Source: an uncultured Clostridia bacterium (GTDB taxonomy: Bacteria; Bacillota; Clostridia; Oscillospirales; Ruminococcaceae). From it: a stretch of DNA of 64,000 nt. The stretch lies in contig CANQXS010000004.1 of NCBI GenBank assembly GCA_947627875.1, forward strand, positions 62,001-126,000, written 5' to 3'. Below are positions 21,672 through 35,810 of the stretch, in pieces. Position numbers and translations under genes: made by a program. The notes under the pieces were generated by a model, which had not been told where the DNA came from, did not search any database, and saw nothing but the letters and a program-made list of their open reading frames with translations. Every line of letters starts with the position of its first letter. The first letter of the stretch is position 1.

Positions 21672-24600
21672 TCAGCCTTCGGTGACGCTGATGTTGAATC
21701 TTCCTTCGACAGGCGATTCGATCTCAACGGTATCGTCGGAGCTTTCGATCGGGGTCTCTGTTGTGCCTCCGGGGACAGTGGGAAGCGCATAGCCGGGCTG
21801 TACATAGCCGCAGGCGGTGCAGACTCCGTTGACGAAGGTGTGAGGCTCTCTCGGACCTCCGACAACACCGCAGCTCGGGCAGATGAGCCAGTGCTCGGTA
21901 TCGCTGAACGCCATTACGAAGTTATGAACGTGGACGCCGTTCGCGGTGTCGGGATCGATGGGAATGGAGATTGAGTCGTGAGCACTGCCGGAATCGTTCT
22001 CCTCGCTCATATTGATCTCGATAGGATTGAACTTCTTGTAAGCGTCCTTCTTGTCGTAGCTGAAGAGCAGGTCGAGGACCATTCCGTTCTCGGGCTCTGC
22101 CGAAGCATAGGCAAAGGTGATTGTTCCGGCAGCCTCGTCGACCTTCATCGAGCAGTAGGCTGCAAGAGGAGTAGCCTTGACAAGAGTAAGCATAGTCGGG
22201 TCGTATTTTACGGTGAAGAGACCGTTGGTGTCGTCGGTGATCTTCATCTGGACCATAACGGTGCAGTTCTTGGGGTCGACATACTGCGAATTCTTCGCGG
22301 TGCTGCTGCCCTCGGCGGTTATGCTGTTGAGCGAGCCGACGACCGAAGCGGTAACATTGTCGGCGGGCTCTTCGGGAGCAGACTCGGTAGGCGCGGGCTC
22401 CTCGGGAGTAGGTTCTGTGGGAGCAGGCTCGGTAGGAGTAGGCTCGGTAGGAGCTGGCTCCTCTGGAGTAGGCTCAGCGGGAGCAGGTTCTGCGGGAACG
22501 GGAGCCGCGGGGAATACATTCGCGAAAACGGAGCGGCGCATAGGAGCTACCGGCTCGGTGACGGCTACGCACTCGCTGAGAGACTTCAATGTCGGAGTTC
22601 CGATAACTATAGCGTCTTCAACGACTCTGCCGGCGCTCGCACCGCTCGGATCGTAAGCTACCGCAGAGTTACCGATAAGCGCGGTAACGGGCCATACGTC
22701 GAGACCGAAGCCCTCGGGATCGACCGATATATGAGCCTCGCCTGTCCTCGAATCGGTCTTGATGTAGTAGAGAAGCGCCGTATCGGGATTGATAGAGGTG
22801 TTGTAAACAGCATAGAGGAGGAAGTCGTCGGCGCTGCTCTGAGGATCTGCGCCCTCGCTGAAGTAGAGCGAGCCGAGAGCGTTGAGCGAGTTCTTGTTAG
22901 CGGTGTAGAAGTCGCCCGCGCCGGGGTTCTTAATGCCGGTGTCGTATTCTGCGGCGCCGATGAGAATATATCCCGCATATTCTCCGGTAAGACCTAAGAA
23001 TACCTGGTGGAGCCCGCCGTCTTCACACATAACGGCATATACGGCGATGATGGAATCGGAGCCGGAGAGATTAGCGAGATACTGGTAAGTAATACCTACC
23101 ATCGGAGAGCCGAATCTTGAAGAGAATCCGTCGAAGTAATAGGGCGCGCCGGCAAGAGTATCTATATTGCCGAAGTAGAGCGAATCGCCCATGTCGCCGA
23201 TCGCCAGGAATTCGGTGGGACTAACTTCATCGAGCTGAGGAAGTATGTCGCCTATAGGATAAGGCACCTCTGCCATATCGCTGAAGAGGAAGTTGATATA
23301 TTCGATCACGGTGCTTCTGCCGTCGGGTTGGAGGGTAACAGGGTCAATTTCCGCAATCTCTGCGCCGGTCTGAACGAATATCTTCTGAGAACCGTCCTCA
23401 AGCTCTCCGCTGGCGGTTCCGGCATAAACGTCGTAATCGGATGAGGTCAGCGGAATGTAGTCCTTCGGGCTCGAAGCGTTTACCTGAGCCCAGCCCGCGG
23501 TTCCGTCGGCGCCGTATACGAAGGCGGTGAAGTCGTGCGCGGGAGCGGTGGTCACGTTGACGGTTATCGGACCGGTAGTAACGGAAGGAGTTGCGACAGA
23601 GGTACCTACTATCGTCGCGGTGCCTTCCTTTACGCCGTAAAGAACGTTGCCGTTTACCATTACCGTAGTCGGGTCGTTAGATACCCATGTTACCTCGCGG
23701 GTGCTTACGGGCAGACCGTCGTCGCCGGTAATTTCGAGCATCCAAGGATCAGCCTTGATGTTCAAAGGATAATTCTCGCCTACCAACAGATTGATCTCGG
23801 CGGGAGCGGGAATACCGGTCGCGGTGGTAGTGGGCTGGAGATTTACGCTCTCGGTATCCTCGGGGATAACGGTAAGAGCATAGGTTACGGGAATATTTGA
23901 CGTATCGAATCCCGAAACATCCTCGGAAGTGTTTGAATGATTCAGCTCATATGTGTCGACGTCGAAAGCATACATATAAACTGCGGGGAAGAAGAAGTTC
24001 ATAAAGCCGGAGCAGTATACCTTTCTGCTTGCTTCGTCATAAGCCAAGCTGATGAACGGAATGTGCTCGGTAAGTCCGACGGTCTCTATTGCGTCGGCAG
24101 GAGTGATAGCGCGGTAGTAGTTGTAATAGAAGTTCACCGCAAGAATATCCCATTCGTAAAGCCTGCCCTGAGTTTCAAAAGCGTTGCCGTAAACGTCGCC
24201 GTAGCAGGTGCCGTCGGGAGTGATAGCCATAGAGTTGAATGGCAGCTCCTCATCGTTGGAAACAGCGCCTATCGGTCCGACACCGCCGCTCACCGGATCT
24301 ACCATGTAGAGCTCGGAATACTCGGCAGCGGAATTCATAACGATTATGCTGCCGTTGTATGTAGAAAGCGCGGCAACGGCGTCGATGCCGTAGGAAGGAA
24401 GGTCGCAGACCTGATAAACGTAGTCGGGCTCGTCGACCGAAGCGGCAAAGAGCGCGCCGGTGGTCCCGTCGCTGTTAAGACCGACAAGGAAGAGATAGCC
24501 GTCGACATATGTAGCCGCGCTGACGGGAAGCGCATCGGCATCGCTGTTTACGGGAGCTATCGGGGTAACACCGACATATACGGAATTGAAATAATCGGTA

Positions 24601-27600
24601 GTATCAAGACCGACACGGTCGGGCTCGTATTTGCTCCACATAAGGGTCTCGGCGTCGACGCCGATGAGAGTGCCCGAAATGTCGGCGCTTTCGCCGCCGT
24701 ATCTTACCATTTTAACGGTGGTGTTGCCGGCGTAGTCGGCCGCATAGAGGAGAACGAATTCACCCGCGCCTTCAAGCTCTTCGGCGGTAGCGGTGAAGGT
24801 GAATTCATCGGTTGCGGGAACGTCGTAAGCAAAGACGAAGTTCTCGTTGCTGCGGCGGCATACCGCAACAAACGCGAGGTTTTCGTTATCGGTCACGCTG
24901 AACGTAAGGTCGCTCTTTGCGTCGGGATCGTCGAGGTCTACCGACAGATTGGCTCCTGTGATAACGGGGGCGGTGTCGTCGACGGTGAAGGTGTATGAAA
25001 GGGTCGCGCCCTTGCCGAGTATACCGCTCGTAACGACTCCCAGAACGGCGGAAACGTCATGCTCGGCGTTCATCAGGTAGTATTCAGGAATGGCGGTGAG
25101 CGAAACGGTGAATTTGTCGCCTTCGGCGAGCTCGACGTCTGCAGGAGAAACATTTATTACCTGCTCCTCGTAATCGTTCGCAACGCTGCCCTGCTCGTTT
25201 ACATACATACCTCTTACGTCGCTGTCAACTGCGCCCCATACGACATTGCCGCCGCCGTCGTAGATCATTGTGAGAACATCGGAGGCGCTGCGGATAAGGG
25301 TGTAATTGAAGGAGCCGATAGTGTCGCTGCTTCTGATCGCAAGCCTGTCGGCAGGGAATTCGCTTTCGGTAACGTAGTTGTTGCCCGTTACGATATATTC
25401 GCCGCCGTCGGTGGAATCAACATAGGTGAGAAGTCCGTTATAAGGGAGATAATCTCCGCTCGCGAGCTTTACTTCGGCGTCGCCGTAGTTATCGAGATCG
25501 TTAGTGCCGTAGATGGCGTCGATATCGGTCTGGCGGTCAAACATCGAAGGATCGGTCCAGTTGCCGTAGAAGCCTATGATCGGAATGCTGTAGTCGACGT
25601 CGAGGACGCCCTCAACGGAGGCCTCGGCGGAAACGGTGGTGTAGCCCTCGACCCAAGCGCCGTTTACATAAGATTCGAGCGCCGCTTTGTTGAGCTCGAT
25701 GTGAACGTCGACGGTAACCGTCTCTCCGGGCTTGAGAGTAACTCTTGTGCCGAGACCGGCAAGAATGAGATGAGCGTCGTAGGAGGTAACCTCGGTGTCG
25801 GAATCGACATCGGCGGCAATAAGGTCGAGCTTGGAGCCGTCAACGTTGCCGACAAGGTAGTCGAGAATGGCAACGGCGTCGTATTCGTCGGTGTCGCCGT
25901 CCATATCGACGTCGGCGTCTATAGAAGCAACTACCTCATAGGGCTCGTTGTTTACCTTATAGGAAACGCTCGAAGGAATGGGCGCGGTGTATTTCGAGAG
26001 ATATGCGCCTTCAATAGCCTGAGTGAAGAGGTCGGTGCCGAAGGTGTAGGAATTGGTGCCTTCGCCGGTATTCGTGAGGGTAAAGGTGTAGTCGTAAACG
26101 CCGGTCTTTAAAGGATCGTCGCCGAGCTCAACCTTTACCTTGCCGTCGTCATAGCTGTTGTTGGCGTTGGGAGCCATCATAATGAAGGCGTCTGCCGAAA
26201 CAGCGTTGCCGACGTTTGCAAGTCCTGCGCCCTGATAAAGAACAGGGTAATAATAGCCGGAGTTATAGGGGTCCATTATCGGGGTCGCGGTAGACATAAG
26301 CAGGCTCTGAGCAACTACTCTCGGAGCAAGCCCAAGCTTATCCGCAAGACCGGTCTTCTGGATATACTGCGAGAGGACCGCGATCATACCCGAGATATGC
26401 GGAGCAGCCTGAGAGGTGCCGACGACGCCCGCATATTGGTCATGCTCATTTGTTGCGAATTCGCCGCCGTTGGGGTTGTCATTGGCGCCGAGGACCGAAT
26501 AGATCCAGTAGCCGCCGGGGGCGGTTATATCGGGCTTGAGCTCAAGGCTTCCGGGAACGCCCCAGGAGCTGAAGTCGCTCATTATCTGCTCGTCGTAGAG
26601 AGCGCCGTGGATAGTGATATCGAGGGTCGCGGTCTCGCCCTCCATAGGAATATAATAATCTACAGGACCCATATATTCCCAACTGAGGTCGGCAGTAAGG
26701 ACATTGCCGTCGCTATAAGAAACGGAAACAACCGGAGCGGTGTATTTATAGGCTGAGAGGTCCATGCGGATCGTACCGCCGTTGGGGTCGCTGTCGGAAT
26801 AACTGTTTACGATGATAACGCCGATAGCGCCGGCTTCAACGGCGTTATTCGCCTTAGTCGAAAAATCGATGTCGCCTCTGTTGATGCAAACTACCTTGCC
26901 CTGAACAAGACCTTTTTCGGCAAGATAATCGAATTCTTCCTTGGTTCCGATGCTGTCGAGATAGACGAATTCAACGCTGTCGCCAAGAGAATAGAAGGGC
27001 TGGATGTCGTCGTTGCTGCTGTTGCCCTCCACTACGGCGTCGTATATAGTGATGGGTTCTTCTCCGTTGACGAGAACTATCTGCTCGACATAGCCGGAGT
27101 TGTTGACGGAAGCGACCGCGATGGAGTCGGTGAACGAGGCAGGAGAGCCGGTGAGGTTAAAGCTTACGTCGTCGTTATAAAGCGCGCCGGGATAGGTCCC
27201 GTCGGGGAAAGCGCCGTCGTTGCCCTGAGCCATTACCGCAACGATAACGCCGCTCTCGGTGATCTCTTCGAGGACCTCGCCGAATCTGTCGCTGTGAGAG
27301 AAGCCGTTTGTAGAGCCGAGAGAAAGGTTGCAAACGTCGGCCCCGAGGAGAATGGCGTCTTCAATGGCGGCGAAGTAATCGGATTCGCTGGTCGTTCCGC
27401 CGGTGAATACCTGCATTGCAAACAGCTGAGCGTCGGGAGCAACGCCCTTTACTCTCGCCTGTTCTTCTTCAACTGTGGTAACGTCGGTGAATCCGCCGTT
27501 GCCGTCGGGAATATATGCGTTAGCGGCTGCAATGCCCGCGACATGAGAGCCGTGAAAATCAACGCCGTTGCCCAGATGCCTTGCATTTGAGGTGCCGTCG

Positions 27601-28443
27601 GCATAGTTGAACGCAACGGGTATTTTCTCGCTGTAATACATATCGGCGGTAAAGCTGCCGCGCTTGCTCATATTTAATTTGGGATATACCTCCGCCACTT
27701 CGTCGGCAGTCATAAGGAGCGAAGTGTCGTAGCCGTTCTTCTGATAGGAATAGAGAAGGGCATCGGGGTCGAACGCAATATGTTCGAGGTCAATACCGGT
27801 GTCTATAATGGCTATTCTTGAGCCTGCGCCGGTATAGCCGCTTGACCAGGCTACGGGTGAACCGGTGAGAGCCGGAGAATTCGCCATGCTCGGGGTGATC
27901 GGATCGCTGAGGCTGTCGGCGGTATAGACGGTTTCTTCATAAACGTCTACAACTCCGGGGACGGTCTTGATGGCTTCGATATCGCCTCTGCGGACGTTTG
28001 CGGAAATGATATTCGCAACGAGCGTGAGGTTCCACACTACGTCGATATCGATTCCGTAGCTGCGGATCCTCGCAGCTACGTCCTCCTGCTGAAGCTCAAG
28101 CTCAGCGCGGTATGACATAGCGGCGTCGTTGTCCGCGATGTTCTTTGTGTCAAAACCGGCAGAAATGGTCGCGCTGCCCTCGACGACGATAGATACGCGA
28201 ACGTATTCTTCTTCGTCAAGAGAAACGGTCATGATGCCGTTGTCTGACGGGGCGAGATTTTCGGGGTTGCGGAGGTCGGGAATAATATCCGCATCCAAAA
28301 GCTCTAAGGATTTACCCCCCCCCCGGTTGATTTTCGTCGGCGCTTACGCTTACGGGCATTACGACGAGCATTGAAAGCAGCATCGCAAATGTCACTGCAA
28401 GCGAGAACACACGACGTAAAATCGGGTTTTCTGATAATTTCAT
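21672..28443 (-). CDS. Giant secreted subtilase with dockerin-like and cohesin-like modules; reading frame broken at a G10 tract
   Basis: Predicted secreted S8 serine protease. The ATG at 28441-28443, with AGGAG before it, starts a signal peptide (MKLSENPILRRVFSLAV..., cleavage after VSVSA). Ten G residues (28315-28324) then lead straight into TAA. With 9 or 12 G the frame would join the 2208-codon frame that begins near 28298. Counting from the internal TTG at 28298, the triad is Asp about 166 (AIIDTG), His about 249 (DFHGSHVAG) and Ser about 628 (GTSQAAPH), with a PA domain inserted around 440-520. Next come Fn3-like regions, a dockerin-like pair of DxDxDG repeats (about 793-850), a Big_2-like domain (about 1500-1580), a Pro/Glu/Thr-rich linker (about 1930-1980), a cohesin-like domain (about 1990-2100) and a CxxC-rich tail. 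No LPXTG. As written it would be OFF, or read from the internal TTG without a signal. Confidence 0.8.
22362..22505 (-). repeat. Pro/Glu/Thr-rich repeat linker in the giant subtilase
   Basis: Degenerate tandem repeats of about 12-15 bases encode alternating units such as EPAPTEPTPEEP. This is a flexible spacer between the catalytic/adhesion part and the cohesin-like module. Copy number may vary between strains. Confidence 0.75.
28315..28324 (-). repeat. Homopolymeric G10 tract (candidate phase-variation switch)
   Basis: Ten consecutive C on the plus strand, i.e. ten G in the coding strand, directly after the signal-peptide region. Current length gives TAA right after the tract; lengths of 8 or 11 reach TAG three codons later; 9 or 12 keep the giant subtilase open. 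Confidence 0.85.
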
Positions 28444-28500
28444 ATTGCATCTCCTTTTCTTTCATTGTACTGGTTTAAAGCACAAAATCTTACGCTAAAA

Positions 28501-28529
28501 ATTATACACTTTTTCAGTATTTATTACAA
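28501..28529 (-). promoter_or_regulatory. Promoter of the giant subtilase gene
   Basis: Minus strand TTGTAA (28524-28529) and TATAAT (28501-28506) with 17 bp between. It supports the true gene start at 28443 rather than at the internal TTG. Nothing else was recognised between here and 28680. Confidence 0.75.
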
Positions 28530-28675: not shown

Positions 28676-28716
28676 AATGCATTTGCCGCCCGCCGGCAGA
28701 CGCGGCAAGCGGCAAA
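28676..28716 (-). terminator. Possible terminator of the glucan synthase gene
   Basis: Minus strand TTTGCCGC (28709-28716) pairs with GCGGCAAA (28682-28689) across a GC-rich loop, followed by TGCATTTTAG. The long loop and short T run make this tentative. Confidence 0.45.
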
Positions 28717-28742
28717 CATTTTTATTCGGTTCGGAGGCTTTT

Positions 28743-31700
28743 TCAGGCGGTCCCGCCGGAGTCCTTCACCTCTGCTTTTTTTGGCGCGCGGGGGTCGACT
28801 CTGAGCTTACCCTCCCTGAGCGAAACTCCGCAGAGCCCCTCTCTTATCGCACGGTAATACCAGGCTGCGGAGCCGGTGTAAATCGACCAGCCGCCGCGCC
28901 CGAAGCAGTTTTTGTTTGCATAAACGTCGCCGCAGAGGTAATAAGGCTCGGTTTTGTATCTGTCCCAGCCGGCAAGAGCGCGGTTTATCGGGCTGAGCGC
29001 CTCAAGGATATTTTCGCCCTCCTCGGTAAGCCCCGCCTTCAGGCAAGCAATTCCGAGCCACACAGCGCCGTGGGTATACTGCCCGCCGTTTTCGCGCATT
29101 CCCGAGGGATAGAACCTGACGTAGCCCGGATCGGGCTCGGCGCCGTCGGAAAAAGCGGGCGTAAACAGCTTTACGACTCCTCGCTTTATATCCGCAAGCT
29201 CGGAATAGGCGCGTTCGAGCGCAGCCCTTGCAAAGCCTTCGCCTCCGAGACCTGCAAACTCCGCAAAAGCCTGAGCTATTGCGTCGATGCTGCACTCCCG
29301 GTTCTTCGGCGAGCCGAGCTCCGAGCCGTCGTCGAAATAACCCCTCAGATACTGCCCCTGCTCCCTGCCGCGGCTCTCGACTACTTCGCAGAGCTTTTCG
29401 GCGCTCTCCGCGAGCTTTTCGGCGTAATCGCAGTCGCCGAGGCGCTTTGAAAGCTCGGAAAACCTTTTCAGAACTATTATAAAGAATTCGCTGAGCCAGA
29501 CCGATTCGCCCCTGCCGTCCTTCCCGACCGAGCCGAAGCCGTCGTTCCAGTCGCCCGTCCCGATGAGCATAAGCCCGTTTTCGCCGGTCTTTCCGAGCCT
29601 GAAGTCGATTGCCCTGCGGCAGTGCTCATAAACGCTGTCGCGCCGAGAGGTCCTGAAAACCTCGCCGTAGCGCTCGCTTTCGCCCTCTTTGAGCTCTATT
29701 CCGTCGCACCAGCAGACCTTAAGCTCCAAAAGCCCGAGGTCGCCCGTCTTGTCGGCGTATTCGCAGACCGCATAGGGCAGCCAGAGCGCGTCGTCCGAGA
29801 TTCGGGTGCGTATCCCGCGGGGCTTTCGGTTCACTACTGTATGCCACCAGTGCATAACGTCGCCCTCTTTGAACTGCGCGGTACAGCAGCGAAGAATCTG
29901 TGTCTTTAACGCCCCGGGGTTCTCCGAGACTATCCCGACGACGTCCTGAAGCTGGTCGCGGAAGCCGTATGCGCCGGAACACTGATAGAACCCCGTTCGG
30001 GCGTAGATGCGCGCGTGGAGCGCCTGATACCTGAGCCAGACGTTCGCGAGAAGGTCGGTGTATTCGCTGTCCGTTTTGATCTCGATCTTTCGCTCGCGGG
30101 TGTCGGTCTGAACGCGGAACCTGCGCGGCATTTCGAGGGCGGCGCGCTCCGAAAGCCCGTAAGAGAGGTAAAAGCTGAGGCTTTCCCCGTCGCCTACATC
30201 GCACCACACCGCCCCTATAAGCCCCGAGGACGGCTCGGCGCATTCCTCCCATTTTCCGCAGAGAAAGCTCTCGCGGTCGGTGCAGGCGCAGGCGCTCTTT
30301 GAAGCGCTCAGATACATATACCCGGGAATTTCCGAGGCGGGCGAGCCGAGAATAAGCCCGTTTTCGGTCTTTTTCGGAATTATCATATCGGCGCGGGAAC
30401 GGTCGGCGCCCATACAGGGTTCAACGTAATAGCAGAGCTTCCCCTTTCCTCTCAGCCTGAGCTCGACCGAGATTTTTTTGCACATTCCCTTCGCCGAAAC
30501 GCCGACTTCGGTGCGGCATTCGTAGCCTTCGCCGCGCGAGTAATACTCCGCCTTATAGGGCGAGAACACCGCCGCCGCTCCCCTTATGAGGTCGAAGATC
30601 CCGCCGTCGGTCTTAAGGAGGAGCCGCTCGCCGAGGTTGTCGCGCTCGGGGTCGTTGTCCCAAGGGGTCAGGCGGTTTTCGCGGGAGTTGAAAGCGTAGG
30701 TGAACCCGAGCGAGCCCTCCGAAACGAGCGTTCCGAAGACAGGGTTAGATAAAATATGACACCATGGCAGCGGCGGCTTTTCATTGACGACATAAGCCGA
30801 GCCGGTAAAGCCTCCCCGCGCAACGGGCAGCTCTACCTTCTGCGGAATGGGACCCGATCCCTTTATTTCGGCATAGCTCAAGGTGTTTATTTCGGGCTGC
30901 TCCGAGGCTATCTCGTCGGTGCAGATATGGCAGGCGGCGGCGCGGCAGAGGTCAAAAAGACATTCACGCGCCCTCGAAAGATCGAGCGGGAGTATCCCTC
31001 CGCTCGAATACACCGAGCCCTCGAGCCCGAGCTCCTTTGCGGCAGAGATGAGCTCGGAATAATGAGCGCGCTCGTATCTTCCGCCGTCGTCGAAGGCAAA
31101 AACGAGCTGAACAGAAAGCCCGCAGAGCCTTAAAAGCTTATATGCGCCGAGGTAAGCCGAAAGCTTCTGCGAGTCGTTGCGGGAATTCAGGACTACGAGC
31201 GCCATAGGGATATCCGTCGCGACGGAGAGCTCCCAAAGAGCCCTCAGCGGGAGCTTATTTTTTATCACTGCCTCCCGCTTTTCGGGGGTAGTCTCCCCTC
31301 CGAAGAGAATATGGGGCAGGAGCGCCGAGGCGACCCTTCCTGCGGCGGTGTCGAGGCGGGGCAGAGCGCAGAATTTCGGGCGTCTGCGGCGTATCTCGGA
31401 GACTCGGTTTATAAGCTCCTCCCTCGAATCGGCGCAGACCAAAAACAGCGTAAGCTCGGCTTCGGCTTTCGGCGGAAGCTCGAGCGAAGCGCGGATAAAC
31501 ACGCAGGGGTCGGGCTCGCAGATCAGGCTCGGCGGTATCTCTTTAAATCGCCTGCCGATGCCGGCAATACCGTCGGGGCGGTCGAGCACCTCGCCGCGGT
31601 CAAAGCTCACGCATTCCTTTACCTCCTCGACGAAGCCTATCCCCAGCCATATCTTCTTTTCGCCGTTCACCCTCGTTGCAATAACGGTGTTCCACTCGGG

Positions 31701-34700
31701 GTCGCGCTCGAGCCGCAAAAACATCTTTGAAAACGCGGGGTGAGCCTCCTCGGCGGCGTCGGACTGAAGCGAAGGCTCGATATAGTTTATAATCGAAACC
31801 GGCAGCGCCTCGGCTGTCTCGTTTCTGAGGGCGAAGGTGCGCAGTTCGCAGGGATATTCCGAATGGAGCCTCAGCCTCATTCCGGCGGAGAGCTTTTTTG
31901 TGTTGCGGTAAAAAGCCGCTCCCTCCTCGCTGAATTCCGCGCAGAGACCTTTGGCTTTATCGGGAAGCCAGCTCAGCGAAAGCGCGTCGCCGCCGTCGCT
32001 GATAAAGCTGAATATCCCCGTAGGTCTCATCATAAGGTCGCGGGTGCGGCGGTAGACGTTTTCTGAGCGGTAAAGCGAAGCGCAGGCGCCGTTGTCGGCT
32101 ATCATCAGGGTCATCTCGCCGTTGCAGATAAGCTTTACCCTCGGCTTTGAAAGGCTGAAGCCGCTCAGAATCTCGGTCTCGCTCTCCCTCGGCTCGGGGG
32201 CGGTCTGCTTCGGCTTCAAAAGGTTGTTTTCAAAGACTGCCGTGCCGAGGTGGAAGCGCTCGTCGAGCAGTTCGAGTGCTCCCCTTACTCGCAGGTCGCG
32301 CATAAACCTCTTCTGAATTATCCCGCCGCCGAGGTAATTGTCGAGCGAGCAGAGGCTCATTCCGACGTGGTGCGCCATATAGCTGCGGACCGGCTCCGGC
32401 TTTTCAGAGCCCGAAGCCGTAAAATCGAGCGCTTCATAGAGACCGTATGAGCCGTACATTCCGTATTCCGCTATTCTGCGGAGGTTTTCGGGACCCTCAG
32501 CGCCCGCAAAGCATAGCGAAATATATGTCGAATAGGGCGAAACGACATAGCTGTTTTCGAGCCCCCGCCTTACGCCCGTATTCGGGACGCCGTGCGCCAT
32601 ATAGCGGTAATTGAGCGCGCTGTCGAAGCTGTAATAGCCGCTCTCCGAAATACCGTAGGGTCTGCCGAGGCTTTTCGCGTATTTTTTCTGCACCCAGAGC
32701 GCATATCTAAGGCTCTCGCCGAAGAGAGACCCCTCGGGGCTCTTTAAGAATATCTCGGGCATAAAGAATTCAAACATCGTCCCCGAATACGAAGCCGCGC
32801 CGCCGAAAAATCCCGAGGAGAGCATCGAGCGGGAGAGCCTCAGCCAATGGCTTTTCGGTACCTGCCGCGAGGCTATCGCCCAGAACGAGGTCAGCCTCGC
32901 CTCGCTCATAAGGTAGTCGTAGCGGTTGGGGCTCTGACTGAGGGCTTTCGGGTCGATCCCTATCGCCATAAGCCCGCGGACGCCGTCGTAAAACGCCGAG
33001 AAGTCGCAGGAGCTGATGATCTCCTCTATCCTCGAAACGAGCCTATTTGCCCTGCGGTCGTTTCCGAGCTCCTTAAGCCCCTCTTTCAGCGCAACGAGGC
33101 AGCAGATAAAATTGCCGCTGTCTACGCTCGAAACATAGGGTTGAGGGCAGATCTCAAGGGTCTGGGTATCGTACCAGTTGTAGAGATTGCCGCGGTATTT
33201 TTCGAGCCGACCGACGGTGTTAAGCGTTCTTTCGAGGCGCGAGAGCGCGGCCTCGGGATTTATGAGCCTGCGGTCGCAAGCCGCGAGCACCGAGAGCATA
33301 TAAAGCCCGATATTCGTCGGCGAGGTCCTGTGGGCGACGCGGTATACCGGCGAAAACTGTACGTTGTCGGGCGGGAGGTCGTTGTCGGCGCGGGTGACGT
33401 ATTTTTCAAAGAAGCCCCACATATCCGCAAACTGCTTCGAGAGCTCGCGGGCGTCGCGGTATTTCGGGGTCTTGTCCGAAAGGGCTATCCCCGCGTCGTT
33501 GAGCGAAAGAAGCGCAGGCATCGACGAAAAAACCGCGCCCATAAGCCTTATGAAATAATCGGGCGACCAAAGGAGCGAAAGCGCCGAGAGCTCTGCCCAG
33601 AGATAAAACCTTATCGGATTCGAGCCCGCCCGCTCAGAGGCGTCGGAGGTCGTCCAGTCCAAAAGCCGCCTGCCGGTTATAAGCCTCAGAAGGGCGGTAA
33701 AGATTGCTCTTACCGACTTTACCGAAAGTGTCGGGAGCATTACCGTGCTGTAAAGGATATACCGAAGGTTCTGCGACGCCGAGCTCAAAAGTCCGGAATA
33801 GAATCGCCGCCCGAGGGCGCGGTCGGAAAGAAACGCCGAAACGGTCCCCATTACCGACGGGAACAGCCAAAAGATCAGCGCGGCAAGGGCGGTTACCGCG
33901 GCGGAAGTCGGATATATAAAGAAGCCGAGAAACATCGCCGAAAAGACCGCGGGCGGCGTTGCGGCGCGGCGAAGATTGTCGGCGAGCTTGAGCTTTGAGA
34001 GGACTCCGTATTTTTTTGAGAACAGCTCGGGAAGGTTCTGAAAATCGCCGCGTATCCAGCGGTCGGCGCGGCGGTAATAGCTCTGGGGAGTGCTCGGAAA
34101 CCCCTCGGTAAAGCAGACATCGCCGGCGTAGGCGGTCCTTAAGAGCTCGCCCTCGAGGATATCATGAGAAAGTATCCGCTCGCTCTTAAGGCTGCCGGTG
34201 CATTCGAGCAGTGCGGCGACGCTGATAAGCCCCTTTCCGCAGAAGGTACCGCTGCCGAAAACGTCCTGATAAAGGTTTGACGATTCCTCGTCGTAGCTCG
34301 AGCGCGAGCCTATCCCGCCGAGGCTTTTTGCAAATTCTGTCCTCAGGGAATCTCCCAAGCGGGTGACCATTCGCGGGCAGATTATCCCGTAGCCCGAAAC
34401 GACTCTGCCGTTTTCTATTCTTACCCTGTTCGACGGGTGGAGCGCTATCGAGAGAAGCTCGGTGACGGAATCCATAAGCGGCTGGGTATCGCTGTCGACG
34501 GCGCATATATATTCCGTCCCGACAAGGCGCTCGGCTGCGCCGAGAGCGGCGTAAAAATCGCCCTCACCGGTCTTCATATACTTTGCGGCGTCCATAAGAG
34601 CGCCCCGCTTTCTGAGAGCACCCATATATTCCTGCTGGGTCTCGGAAAAGCTCCGCTTTCTTACGATGCAGGAAAACTTTCCCTCGCATATTCCGTTGAG

Positions 34701-35810
34701 CCTCGAAACCGTTTCGCCGAGGCTTTCGATAACCGCGCGGTCCTCGGAGGTCGTCGGGACCTGTTCGGCGTGAAGGTCGGCGAGCGCGCAGATCAGAATG
34801 TTCTCCGAGGGGTTGAGGCAGTGGAGCTTTAAAAGGCGGTCGTAAAGGCGTTCGGCGTCTTCGGGGTCAGAGACCGCCGCCGAAAGGACTATCGCGGTTT
34901 TTGTATTTTTTACCTCCTCCGAGCGCGAATCGAAGCGCATAAGGCGGGAAGCTCCCCTGCCTCGCCTAAGGATCATATCGCTGAAAGGGCGGAGGGCTTC
35001 TACTGCCGGAAGGAACAGGAGCAAAGCCGCCGCAGGAACATCTGCCCAAAGAGCCGTAATAACCGAAACCGCCGCAGCAGCGGCAAAGAGCGCAAGGGCG
35101 CAGGCGAGCGCAGCGCTCTCGGGGAGAAAGCCTTTTCGGGAGGGAAAGCTGTTTATATCAAGGTCTGTTCCGCGGTATTTTTCAAGGAGATCGTCGCAGA
35201 GCCTGAGCTCGTCGATACCGAGCTCCTCAGACGCGCCGTAGACCGCCTCTCGGTAGCAAAGTCGGGTGCGCGGGTCGCTTTCGCGGTAGGCTCTGTCCTC
35301 CGAGAGCTTTATCGCGACAGGGTTTAAAACGTCGTTTATCCTCACGGCGTCGAGGCTGCCGAGGCTCCCCAAGAGCGTAATGCAGCGGATAAGCTCCCTG
35401 TCCCAATTTTTCACAAGGAGGCATATTCTTTCGACAAGGGTATAGGTAAGCCCGAAGGCGAGATATTCAAATTCGCAGCCGTATACCCTGCGGTTTTCGC
35501 AGGCTTTGCGAAGGGCAAGGAGCGCGCCGTCGGTATCGGGGAGGCGGTCTTCCGAGGCGCGGAGCAGCGCTTCGGCAAGCTTAAAGCCGCCGTCGAGGTA
35601 TACTTTGCGGCTGTCTTTCGGCGACGGGCGGACATCGGCGCAGCTCAGGACGGTGTGAAAATTATCGGCAAAGAAAGCCGCGGCGTCGTTCGGAACGCCC
35701 GAGGCGCAGAGCTCGGAATATATCCTCTTCAGGGTCTTTATCCGCTTTGCCGTTCTTCGGGCGAGCTTTTTTATGCTCACAAGTCCCGCTTTTCTGCCGC
35801 CTTTGCTCAT
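28743..35810 (-). CDS. Cyclic beta-1,2-glucan synthase-like protein (GT84-GH189-GH94)
   Basis: A 2355-residue multimodular membrane enzyme, probably making beta-1,2-glucan. Known family members polymerise glucose from UDP-glucose (GT84), close the ring by transglycosylation (GH189) and set chain length by phosphorolysis (GH94). Visible: hydrophobic segments near 230-275, GT DxD-type motif AVDSDTQ near 439, RADRW of the RxxRW motif near 580, more hydrophobic helices near 605-700, a middle alpha-barrel region (about 790-1180) and the GH94 catalytic motif GTGDWNDG near 2085. It is shorter than the roughly 2800-2900 residues of the Brucella and Agrobacterium enzymes. The start follows the ribosome site GAAAGGAAG. 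It could instead make or degrade linear glucan. Confidence 0.85.
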   Translation of the reverse strand: MSKGGRKAGLVSIKKLARRTAKRIKTLKRIYSELCASGVPNDAAAFFADNFHTVLSCADVRPSPKDSRKVYLDGGFKLAEALLRASEDRLPDTDGALLALRKACENRRVYGCEFEYLAFGLTYTLVERICLLVKNWDRELIRCITLLGSLGSLDAVRINDVLNPVAIKLSEDRAYRESDPRTRLCYREAVYGASEELGIDELRLCDDLLEKYRGTDLDINSFPSRKGFLPESAALACALALFAAAAAVSVITALWADVPAAALLLFLPAVEALRPFSDMILRRGRGASRLMRFDSRSEEVKNTKTAIVLSAAVSDPEDAERLYDRLLKLHCLNPSENILICALADLHAEQVPTTSEDRAVIESLGETVSRLNGICEGKFSCIVRKRSFSETQQEYMGALRKRGALMDAAKYMKTGEGDFYAALGAAERLVGTEYICAVDSDTQPLMDSVTELLSIALHPSNRVRIENGRVVSGYGIICPRMVTRLGDSLRTEFAKSLGGIGSRSSYDEESSNLYQDVFGSGTFCGKGLISVAALLECTGSLKSERILSHDILEGELLRTAYAGDVCFTEGFPSTPQSYYRRADRWIRGDFQNLPELFSKKYGVLSKLKLADNLRRAATPPAVFSAMFLGFFIYPTSAAVTALAALIFWLFPSVMGTVSAFLSDRALGRRFYSGLLSSASQNLRYILYSTVMLPTLSVKSVRAIFTALLRLITGRRLLDWTTSDASERAGSNPIRFYLWAELSALSLLWSPDYFIRLMGAVFSSMPALLSLNDAGIALSDKTPKYRDARELSKQFADMWGFFEKYVTRADNDLPPDNVQFSPVYRVAHRTSPTNIGLYMLSVLAACDRRLINPEAALSRLERTLNTVGRLEKYRGNLYNWYDTQTLEICPQPYVSSVDSGNFICCLVALKEGLKELGNDRRANRLVSRIEEIISSCDFSAFYDGVRGLMAIGIDPKALSQSPNRYDYLMSEARLTSFWAIASRQVPKSHWLRLSRSMLSSGFFGGAASYSGTMFEFFMPEIFLKSPEGSLFGESLRYALWVQKKYAKSLGRPYGISESGYYSFDSALNYRYMAHGVPNTGVRRGLENSYVVSPYSTYISLCFAGAEGPENLRRIAEYGMYGSYGLYEALDFTASGSEKPEPVRSYMAHHVGMSLCSLDNYLGGGIIQKRFMRDLRVRGALELLDERFHLGTAVFENNLLKPKQTAPEPRESETEILSGFSLSKPRVKLICNGEMTLMIADNGACASLYRSENVYRRTRDLMMRPTGIFSFISDGGDALSLSWLPDKAKGLCAEFSEEGAAFYRNTKKLSAGMRLRLHSEYPCELRTFALRNETAEALPVSIINYIEPSLQSDAAEEAHPAFSKMFLRLERDPEWNTVIATRVNGEKKIWLGIGFVEEVKECVSFDRGEVLDRPDGIAGIGRRFKEIPPSLICEPDPCVFIRASLELPPKAEAELTLFLVCADSREELINRVSEIRRRRPKFCALPRLDTAAGRVASALLPHILFGGETTPEKREAVIKNKLPLRALWELSVATDIPMALVVLNSRNDSQKLSAYLGAYKLLRLCGLSVQLVFAFDDGGRYERAHYSELISAAKELGLEGSVYSSGGILPLDLSRARECLFDLCRAAACHICTDEIASEQPEINTLSYAEIKGSGPIPQKVELPVARGGFTGSAYVVNEKPPLPWCHILSNPVFGTLVSEGSLGFTYAFNSRENRLTPWDNDPERDNLGERLLLKTDGGIFDLIRGAAAVFSPYKAEYYSRGEGYECRTEVGVSAKGMCKKISVELRLRGKGKLCYYVEPCMGADRSRADMIIPKKTENGLILGSPASEIPGYMYLSASKSACACTDRESFLCGKWEECAEPSSGLIGAVWCDVGDGESLSFYLSYGLSERAALEMPRRFRVQTDTRERKIEIKTDSEYTDLLANVWLRYQALHARIYARTGFYQCSGAYGFRDQLQDVVGIVSENPGALKTQILRCCTAQFKEGDVMHWWHTVVNRKPRGIRTRISDDALWLPYAVCEYADKTGDLGLLELKVCWCDGIELKEGESERYGEVFRTSRRDSVYEHCRRAIDFRLGKTGENGLMLIGTGDWNDGFGSVGKDGRGESVWLSEFFIIVLKRFSELSKRLGDCDYAEKLAESAEKLCEVVESRGREQGQYLRGYFDDGSELGSPKNRECSIDAIAQAFAEFAGLGGEGFARAALERAYSELADIKRGVVKLFTPAFSDGAEPDPGYVRFYPSGMRENGGQYTHGAVWLGIACLKAGLTEEGENILEALSPINRALAGWDRYKTEPYYLCGDVYANKNCFGRGGWSIYTGSAAWYYRAIREGLCGVSLREGKLRVDPRAPKKAEVKDSGGTA

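Follow-up and report, generated by a model that had tools for sequence, protein, structure and literature searches.

Known G-tract systems and the present locus

In promoters of the Neisseria porA type, a poly-G tract lies between the -35 and -10 boxes. As a general regulatory device, homopolymer tracts have long been known, and a term search of the available text of PMC2831843 returned nothing on flanks or Firmicutes. For the Campylobacter phasome, the available text of PMC6321876 gives 53% G9 and 26% G10 over 77 genomes, 5 to 81 loci per strain, and a threshold of at least 8 G for a hypermutable homopolymer in C. jejuni; phase-variable homologues without a tract are described there as well. 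A third body of work concerns the GnT hotspot, where, in the accessible part of PMC12344412, the least mutable 5′ base is C and the least mutable 3′ base is A, and the T-to-G rate at G4T is lowest where AC stands 5′ and A stands 3′. Among the matches listed in our literature search, with most subscription papers and preprints outside its scope, we found no poly-G phase variation in gut Clostridia and no C-Gn-TA flank. The kind of switch is known, and the lineage and the stereotyped flank appear to be new.

The window analyzed here is a stretch of 64,000 nt (contig CANQXS010000004.1, positions 62,001-126,000; coordinates below are window positions). It holds a G10 tract that, judging from sequence comparison, is very likely a slipped-strand contingency switch, one of a genus-wide set of long G tracts. 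This set resembles the Campylobacter phasome, as far as the available text of PMC6321876 describes it, in that the commonest length is 9 G and the next commonest 10 G, on and off states are mixed, and homologues without a tract occur. It differs in that the Clostridia lineage keeps mutS1 and in that the targets include large secreted proteases, acyltransferases and MurT. In the present set the tracts stand in the flank C-Gn-TA and follow an A/T block that lies 5-10 nt upstream; the comparison with Campylobacter covers tract lengths, on/off states, targets and homologues without a tract. As in the Neisseria porA type, a TTGA[CT] box on one side and a TA...T box on the other enclose 13 of the 92 genus tracts by a mechanical test, whereas the genomes studied here also hold the same flanked tract inside coding frames, as in the window. 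The likeness to the GnT motif is a G-run followed by T, with C-Gn-T-A corresponding to the quiet context; however, that study, in the part available to us, treats substitutions after G3-G5 in Pseudomonas and Salmonella, and the present case concerns slippage of G9 (PMC12344412).

The G10 tract and the protease gene

All features of the unit lie on the minus strand. A promoter-like site, TTGTAA-17-TATAAT (28501..28529), matches the consensus at 10 of 12 positions and was recognized by consensus only; two such sites were found in 461 bases against 0.7 expected from shuffles. A Shine-Dalgarno sequence AGGAG (28451..28455) is located 7 nt 5′ of the ATG at 28443, where a short ORF of 43 codons begins (28312..28443). 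Its translation, MKLSENPILRRVFSLAVTFAMLLSMLVVMPVSVSADENQPGGG, covers a signal peptide, judged by eye, and the tract, and is ended by TAA. The tract itself (28315..28324; C10 on the plus strand) is the sole G or C run of at least 7 within the 64-kb window. It is preceded by AAAATCAACC and followed by TAAATC, in agreement with the genome-wide flank pattern, and its length passes the threshold of at least 8 G given for C. jejuni in the available text of PMC6321876. A terminator-like hairpin (28680..28718; two found against 0.7 expected from shuffles) separates the unit from the preceding gene. That gene (28743-35810), to which the hairpin would belong as its own terminator, has 2355 codons with GH94 and glycoamylase-like domains and is presumably cyclic glucan synthase-like.

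The tract lies exactly at the signal-peptide junction and separates the signal peptide from a frame of 2208 codons (21672..28298), which is open throughout from a TTG and, at G10, out of phase with the signal peptide. A change in tract length at this position would toggle the product, as the signal peptide and the protease frame stand on either side. The arrangement reported in an earlier note on this DNA, with promoter, ribosome site, signal peptide, exactly ten G and TAA on the minus strand, was found in full, and its arithmetic (9 or 12 G in frame, 8 or 11 G leading to a stop) proved right when recomputed.

The long frame qualifies as an S8 subtilase by a domain over the cut-off together with the catalytic motifs. 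The Pfam domain Peptidase_S8 spans residues 157-672 (26283..27830) with E 4.3e-43 and 148.1 bits against a cut-off of 21.8, and a PA domain is found with E 7.4e-13. The translation contains HGSHVA at 249, GTSQAAP at 627 and IAIIDTGID, which we take to be the His, Ser and Asp motifs of S8 catalysis, respectively. The best solved relatives are C5a peptidase (7edd, E 9.9e-35) and chemokine protease C (E 2.9e-30). Streptococcal C5a peptidase and the cell-envelope proteinases share the S8 and PA domains with the window protease. In contrast to them, the window protease has no LPxTG motif, is 2208 codons long, carries G10 at the signal-peptide junction, and has a dockerin-like segment below the threshold. 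The description of the protease as bearing dockerin and cohesin was not upheld by Pfam, where Dockerin_1 reaches 17.6 bits (E 0.0045) against a cut-off of 22.9 and Cohesin 10.5 bits (E 0.69) against one of 24.1, both too low.

Long G runs in the window genome

The genome that holds the window is represented by one draft assembly of 2.57 Mb in 50 contigs. It contains 18 runs of at least 9 G (12 G9, 5 G10 and 1 G12), where about 15 are expected at equal base frequencies. Exact G7 runs number 13 against about 176 expected on the same basis; long G runs are thus rare in this genome except at 9 or more. The flanks of the 18 tracts are strongly biased: C is at -1 in 18/18, T at +1 in 16/18 and TA at +1,+2 in 14/18, and 13/18 have at least 5 A/T among the six bases from -10 to -5. 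With baselines set from shorter runs (53% for C, 7% for TA and 12% for the A/T block), the binomial values are 1e-5, 2e-13 and 5e-9, respectively. The exact G7 runs of the same genome have mixed flanks (C-G7-TA in 0/13), and C..TA surrounds 3-13% of the G3-G6 runs in the loci fetched.

Several of these tracts affect recognizable genes. A locus on contig C20 (L019) repeats the layout of the window, with the signal-peptide-like MKKRIVSALLALVLILSNFT, G10, a stop, and then about 1000 open codons out of phase, followed to the end of the locus. In a second subtilase (L012), G9 lies in frame in the N-terminal region, and the same holds for the counterpart of this gene in the congener G010. A C-5 DNA methylase (L009) and MurT (L014) are broken by their tracts, and a tract lies just 5′ of the start of a LytTR regulator (L010).

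Distribution of the flanked tract

Relatives were surveyed with the pattern HG9HH, in which the flanks are merely non-G. Among 31 congeners, 150 G9 runs were found in 22 genomes; C precedes 121 of them, TA follows 113, and 94 are C-G9-TA. A direct search of the genus for C-G9-TA also returned 94, and the reversed control 0. The trait is patchy: G003 has 24 G9 runs (15 C-G9-TA), G016 has 16 (12), and nine genomes have none. Rich in tracts are G000, G003, G016, G017 and G022, and poor in them are G011, G012, G021, G023, G027 and G030. In a class sample of 118 genomes, C-G9-TA makes up 30/36 of the G9 runs of the genus g46 (G075, G109, G163) and 3/62 in the remaining class genomes, own excluded. 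The unbiased flank counts are these two surveys and the 18 tracts of the window genome. Flank figures of 88/90 for C, 85/90 for A and 92% are biased, being drawn from loci of relatives that were fetched by the C-G9-TA pattern itself. The flank logos omit the low-complexity loci L069 and L070 as well as tracts close to the end of a locus, and each set of identical flanks enters them once.

A genome scan for AAWTTNNNC-G9-TA gave at least 115 stretches, and 34 among the 115 matches listed come from one rabbit MAG series (Lapin), from which many tract carriers stem. A dataset effect may contribute to the C-G9-TA pattern. The pattern is not confined to Lapin, because isolates and other MAG sets match too; the isolate Blautia sp. 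MSJ-19, from outside Lapin and picked because it holds a match, has C-G9-TA in 3/4 of its G9 runs. Of 18 genomes picked because each holds a scan match, several often show the 3′ TA, with a 5′ base that varies. In G187, likewise picked for a match, 6/10 G9 runs are T-G9-TA, and in G190 and G192 the 3′ TA is not the rule. G190 (Bacteroidales, MGBC; L345-L349) is a tract-rich genome without the C-TA rule, with 38 G9 runs in 2.3 Mb and mixed flanks among which A..AA is common. A scan of 2.9 million viral contigs gave 17 stretches; the motif is therefore not phage-borne in bulk, and a phage origin was rejected.

Repeat families were also observed. In G075 and G163 (L310-L329), which belong to a Monoglobus-like genus, an intergenic repeat family of the form ..TGCCTTTCTCCGAC.TTTGTC-G9-TAATTTTAATA..CGCGG, perhaps a small mobile element, contains several of the C-G9-TA tracts. 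In G9-poor congeners (L091-L124; G001, G013, G019, G027 and others), C-G7-TA occurs within TTGACA-type promoters and within repeat families that end in AACCTCCG.ACAC. The C..TA G7 runs of G001, G013, G019, G027 and G030 were considered as tracts and set aside, being by eye mostly such promoters or repeat families. Rfam, run on 12 G7 loci of L091-L124, found nothing at the tracts, its lone match being a lysine riboswitch elsewhere in L117. In a Lachnospiraceae locus from wild mouse (L148), three neighboring and partly similar sequences start with ATGA..AAAATTTTTC, continue with G9, G8 or G8, and then reach TAG.

Target genes, tract lengths and on/off states

Tracts are found in or at acyltransferases, sugar transferases, a DNA methylase, MurT, promoter spacers and three large secreted proteins. 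Pfam families were tallied for 85 ORFs at or adjoining tracts (91 picked; L090, an antisense ORF of L049 and two duplicates left out), with L012 and the window frame, both S8, scanned separately. Among the commonest 25 of 76 families, from which the figures are taken, there are 10 Acyl_transf_3, 4 epimerases, 3 DegT aminotransferases, 3 group 1 glycosyltransferases, 2 sugar transferases, 2 S8 and 2 MurT. Five genomes together have 13 Acyl_transf_3 genes (G000 2, G003 6, G016 2, G017 3, G022 0), and a tract lies inside the match or at most 35 nt upstream of it in 11 of these, where well under one is expected by estimate. One of the 11 tracts is T-G9-TA, and several of the genes are split by the tract. 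By these Pfam scans and the acyltransferase enrichment, the targets are of the surface and restriction-modification kinds expected of phase variation.

The tract is retained in orthologous genes of about 70-95% identity, and its length differs in several of them. The sugar transferase tract is G10 in the window genome, G11 in L240 and G9 in both copies of G017, where the frame is intact; the sugar transferases of G016 and G020 have no tract, and that of G016 has a stop near the site. The aminotransferase tract is G9 in the window genome and G10 in G017. MurT, whose function is presumably lipid II amidation, occurs in 4/31 genomes with a run at one homologous site of G9, G9, G8 or G6 (L014, C9 in the window genome; L132 of G004; L133 of G015; L082/L134 of G010), and only the gene with G8 is open. 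In a mechanical frame survey of 97 tracts, which left out 6 at locus edges, 28 had clear frames on both sides; 15 of these are open, and the 13 broken ones divide into 7 in one phase and 6 in the other. Among the G9 tracts, 12 are open and 7 and 4 are broken in the two phases. An overlapping next gene makes the survey misjudge L020 and L049, in opposite directions; these two were judged apart.

The length differences between orthologues concern other tract genes, as the only close orthologue of the window gene is without a tract. This orthologue, the nearest among the genomes searched, is in G010 (L136) and has a similar signal peptide that continues directly into the protease frame. At the junction, a tract is likewise absent from L137, L138 and L139, which are more distant homologues. 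The earlier note took a tract in close relatives as an expectation, which G010 contradicts. The observation weighs only modestly against a switch, because Campylobacter, too, has phase-variable genes with homologues that lack the tract (available text of PMC6321876). Over 889 aligned codons the window gene and that of G010 are 71% identical, with dN 0.20 and dS 1.14. The resulting dN/dS of about 0.18 is a two-species average, which a very recent loss would not disturb. The protease frame is under purifying selection.

Alternative explanations

Were the G10 due to an assembly or sequencing error of one base, the gene would in truth have an in-frame tract and always be on. The assembly is a draft in 50 contigs, and the share of Lapin genomes among the scan matches is a dataset effect to consider. 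In addition, all G10 tracts of the window genome judged coding (window, L019, L020 and L013, the last taken as coding by presumed homology) are out of frame, and 6/6 judgeable broken coding tracts of this genome, including that of L013, share one break phase, as a one-directional bias of assembly or slippage would give. On the other hand, an error of assembly cannot know gene function, and 11/13 acyltransferase genes carry a tract. The wider survey of G9 shows all three phases, tracts are kept with different lengths in several orthologous genes, and C-G9-TA occurs in isolates outside Lapin. One-directional error as a general rule was rejected, since both break phases occur in the wider set despite the single phase in the window genome. 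This explanation, named in the earlier note as the main alternative, keeps a small but real probability for the window tract and fails to explain the set; overall we regard it as unlikely.

Slippage on long homopolymers can occur during transcription. Through such slippage, or through ribosomal frameshifting at the G-run, a fixed fraction of full-length protein would arise with no change in the DNA. Yet orthologous tracts differ in length in the DNA, and some tracts of the set occupy promoter-like spacers, where DNA length alone matters. As a replacement for switching at the DNA level, slippage or frameshifting at the RNA level is very unlikely, and RNA-level slippage could coexist with it. 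Least credible of all is a decaying pseudogene whose protease was lost by a fixed frameshift and is drifting, for although the gene is off in the sole assembly at hand, its 2208 codons are open with no other lesion, its substitutions show constraint over the codons aligned with G010, and promoter-like site, ribosome site and signal peptide are intact.

Probable phase variation, proposed mechanism and implications

The phase-variation reading put forward in the earlier note is supported, at the level of sequence, by the genus-wide set, its gene classes, length distribution and mixed on/off states, and the length differences between orthologues, because these are the features expected of contingency loci. 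Slipped-strand mispairing is the simplest account of the tracts. During DNA copying, the G-run would sometimes gain or lose a base. Some lengths would join the signal peptide in frame to the S8 protease, which would then be made and exported; others, including the G10 of the assembly, would stop translation right after the signal peptide and leave the gene off. The genus set would act likewise on surface-glycan enzymes, large secreted proteins, the DNA methylase and MurT, and other genes may be switched through promoter spacing. We infer that length changes occur at high frequency within a population and that expression changes with them.

Campylobacter presumably lacks mismatch repair. In the present genus, loss of mutS is not the source of instability and was rejected as a cause, as mutS1 scores over the cut-off in 30/31 congeners, the exception, G021, being 84% complete and without a G9 run.

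Slippage alone does not account for the flank pattern. Surviving reversible switches may be tracts with a quiet border, because with C on the 5′ side and A on the 3′ side the T behind a G-run is least likely to change to G (PMC12344412, in its available part). This idea explains neither the T at +1 nor the A/T block. It is also conceivable, though we consider it doubtful, that a dedicated, horizontally shared factor reads the A/T block (-10 to -5), the C, the G-run and the TA, and creates or destabilizes the tracts. Gut bacteria would thereby possess a system of targeted hypermutation. It would be shared by this genus and the Monoglobus-like genus and be rare in the other class genomes sampled, with G9-TA patterns of a related kind in some genomes of Lachnospiraceae, Bacteroidales and Treponema.

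If the phase-variation reading is true, a phasome like that of Campylobacter operates in uncultured gut Clostridia and stochastically switches the acylation of surface glycans, large secreted proteases, a DNA methylase and a lipid II amidation enzyme. This would bear on strain-level metagenomics, on phage and immune interactions, and on genes miscalled as pseudogenes. The near-fixed C-Gn-TA flank would then serve as a simple signature for such loci in any metagenome and would make it testable whether flanks tune tract mutability.

The birth of tracts by conversion of a T-run, as at the GnT hotspot, was considered and is not supported, the tract-less orthologues of two genes having no T-run at the site.

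Two tracts of the window genome have A at +1 (L010 on contig C6 and L018 on contig C17). They continue as ATAATA and ACAATA, which is the sequence that a T-to-G change at the first base of TATAAT or TACAAT would leave.
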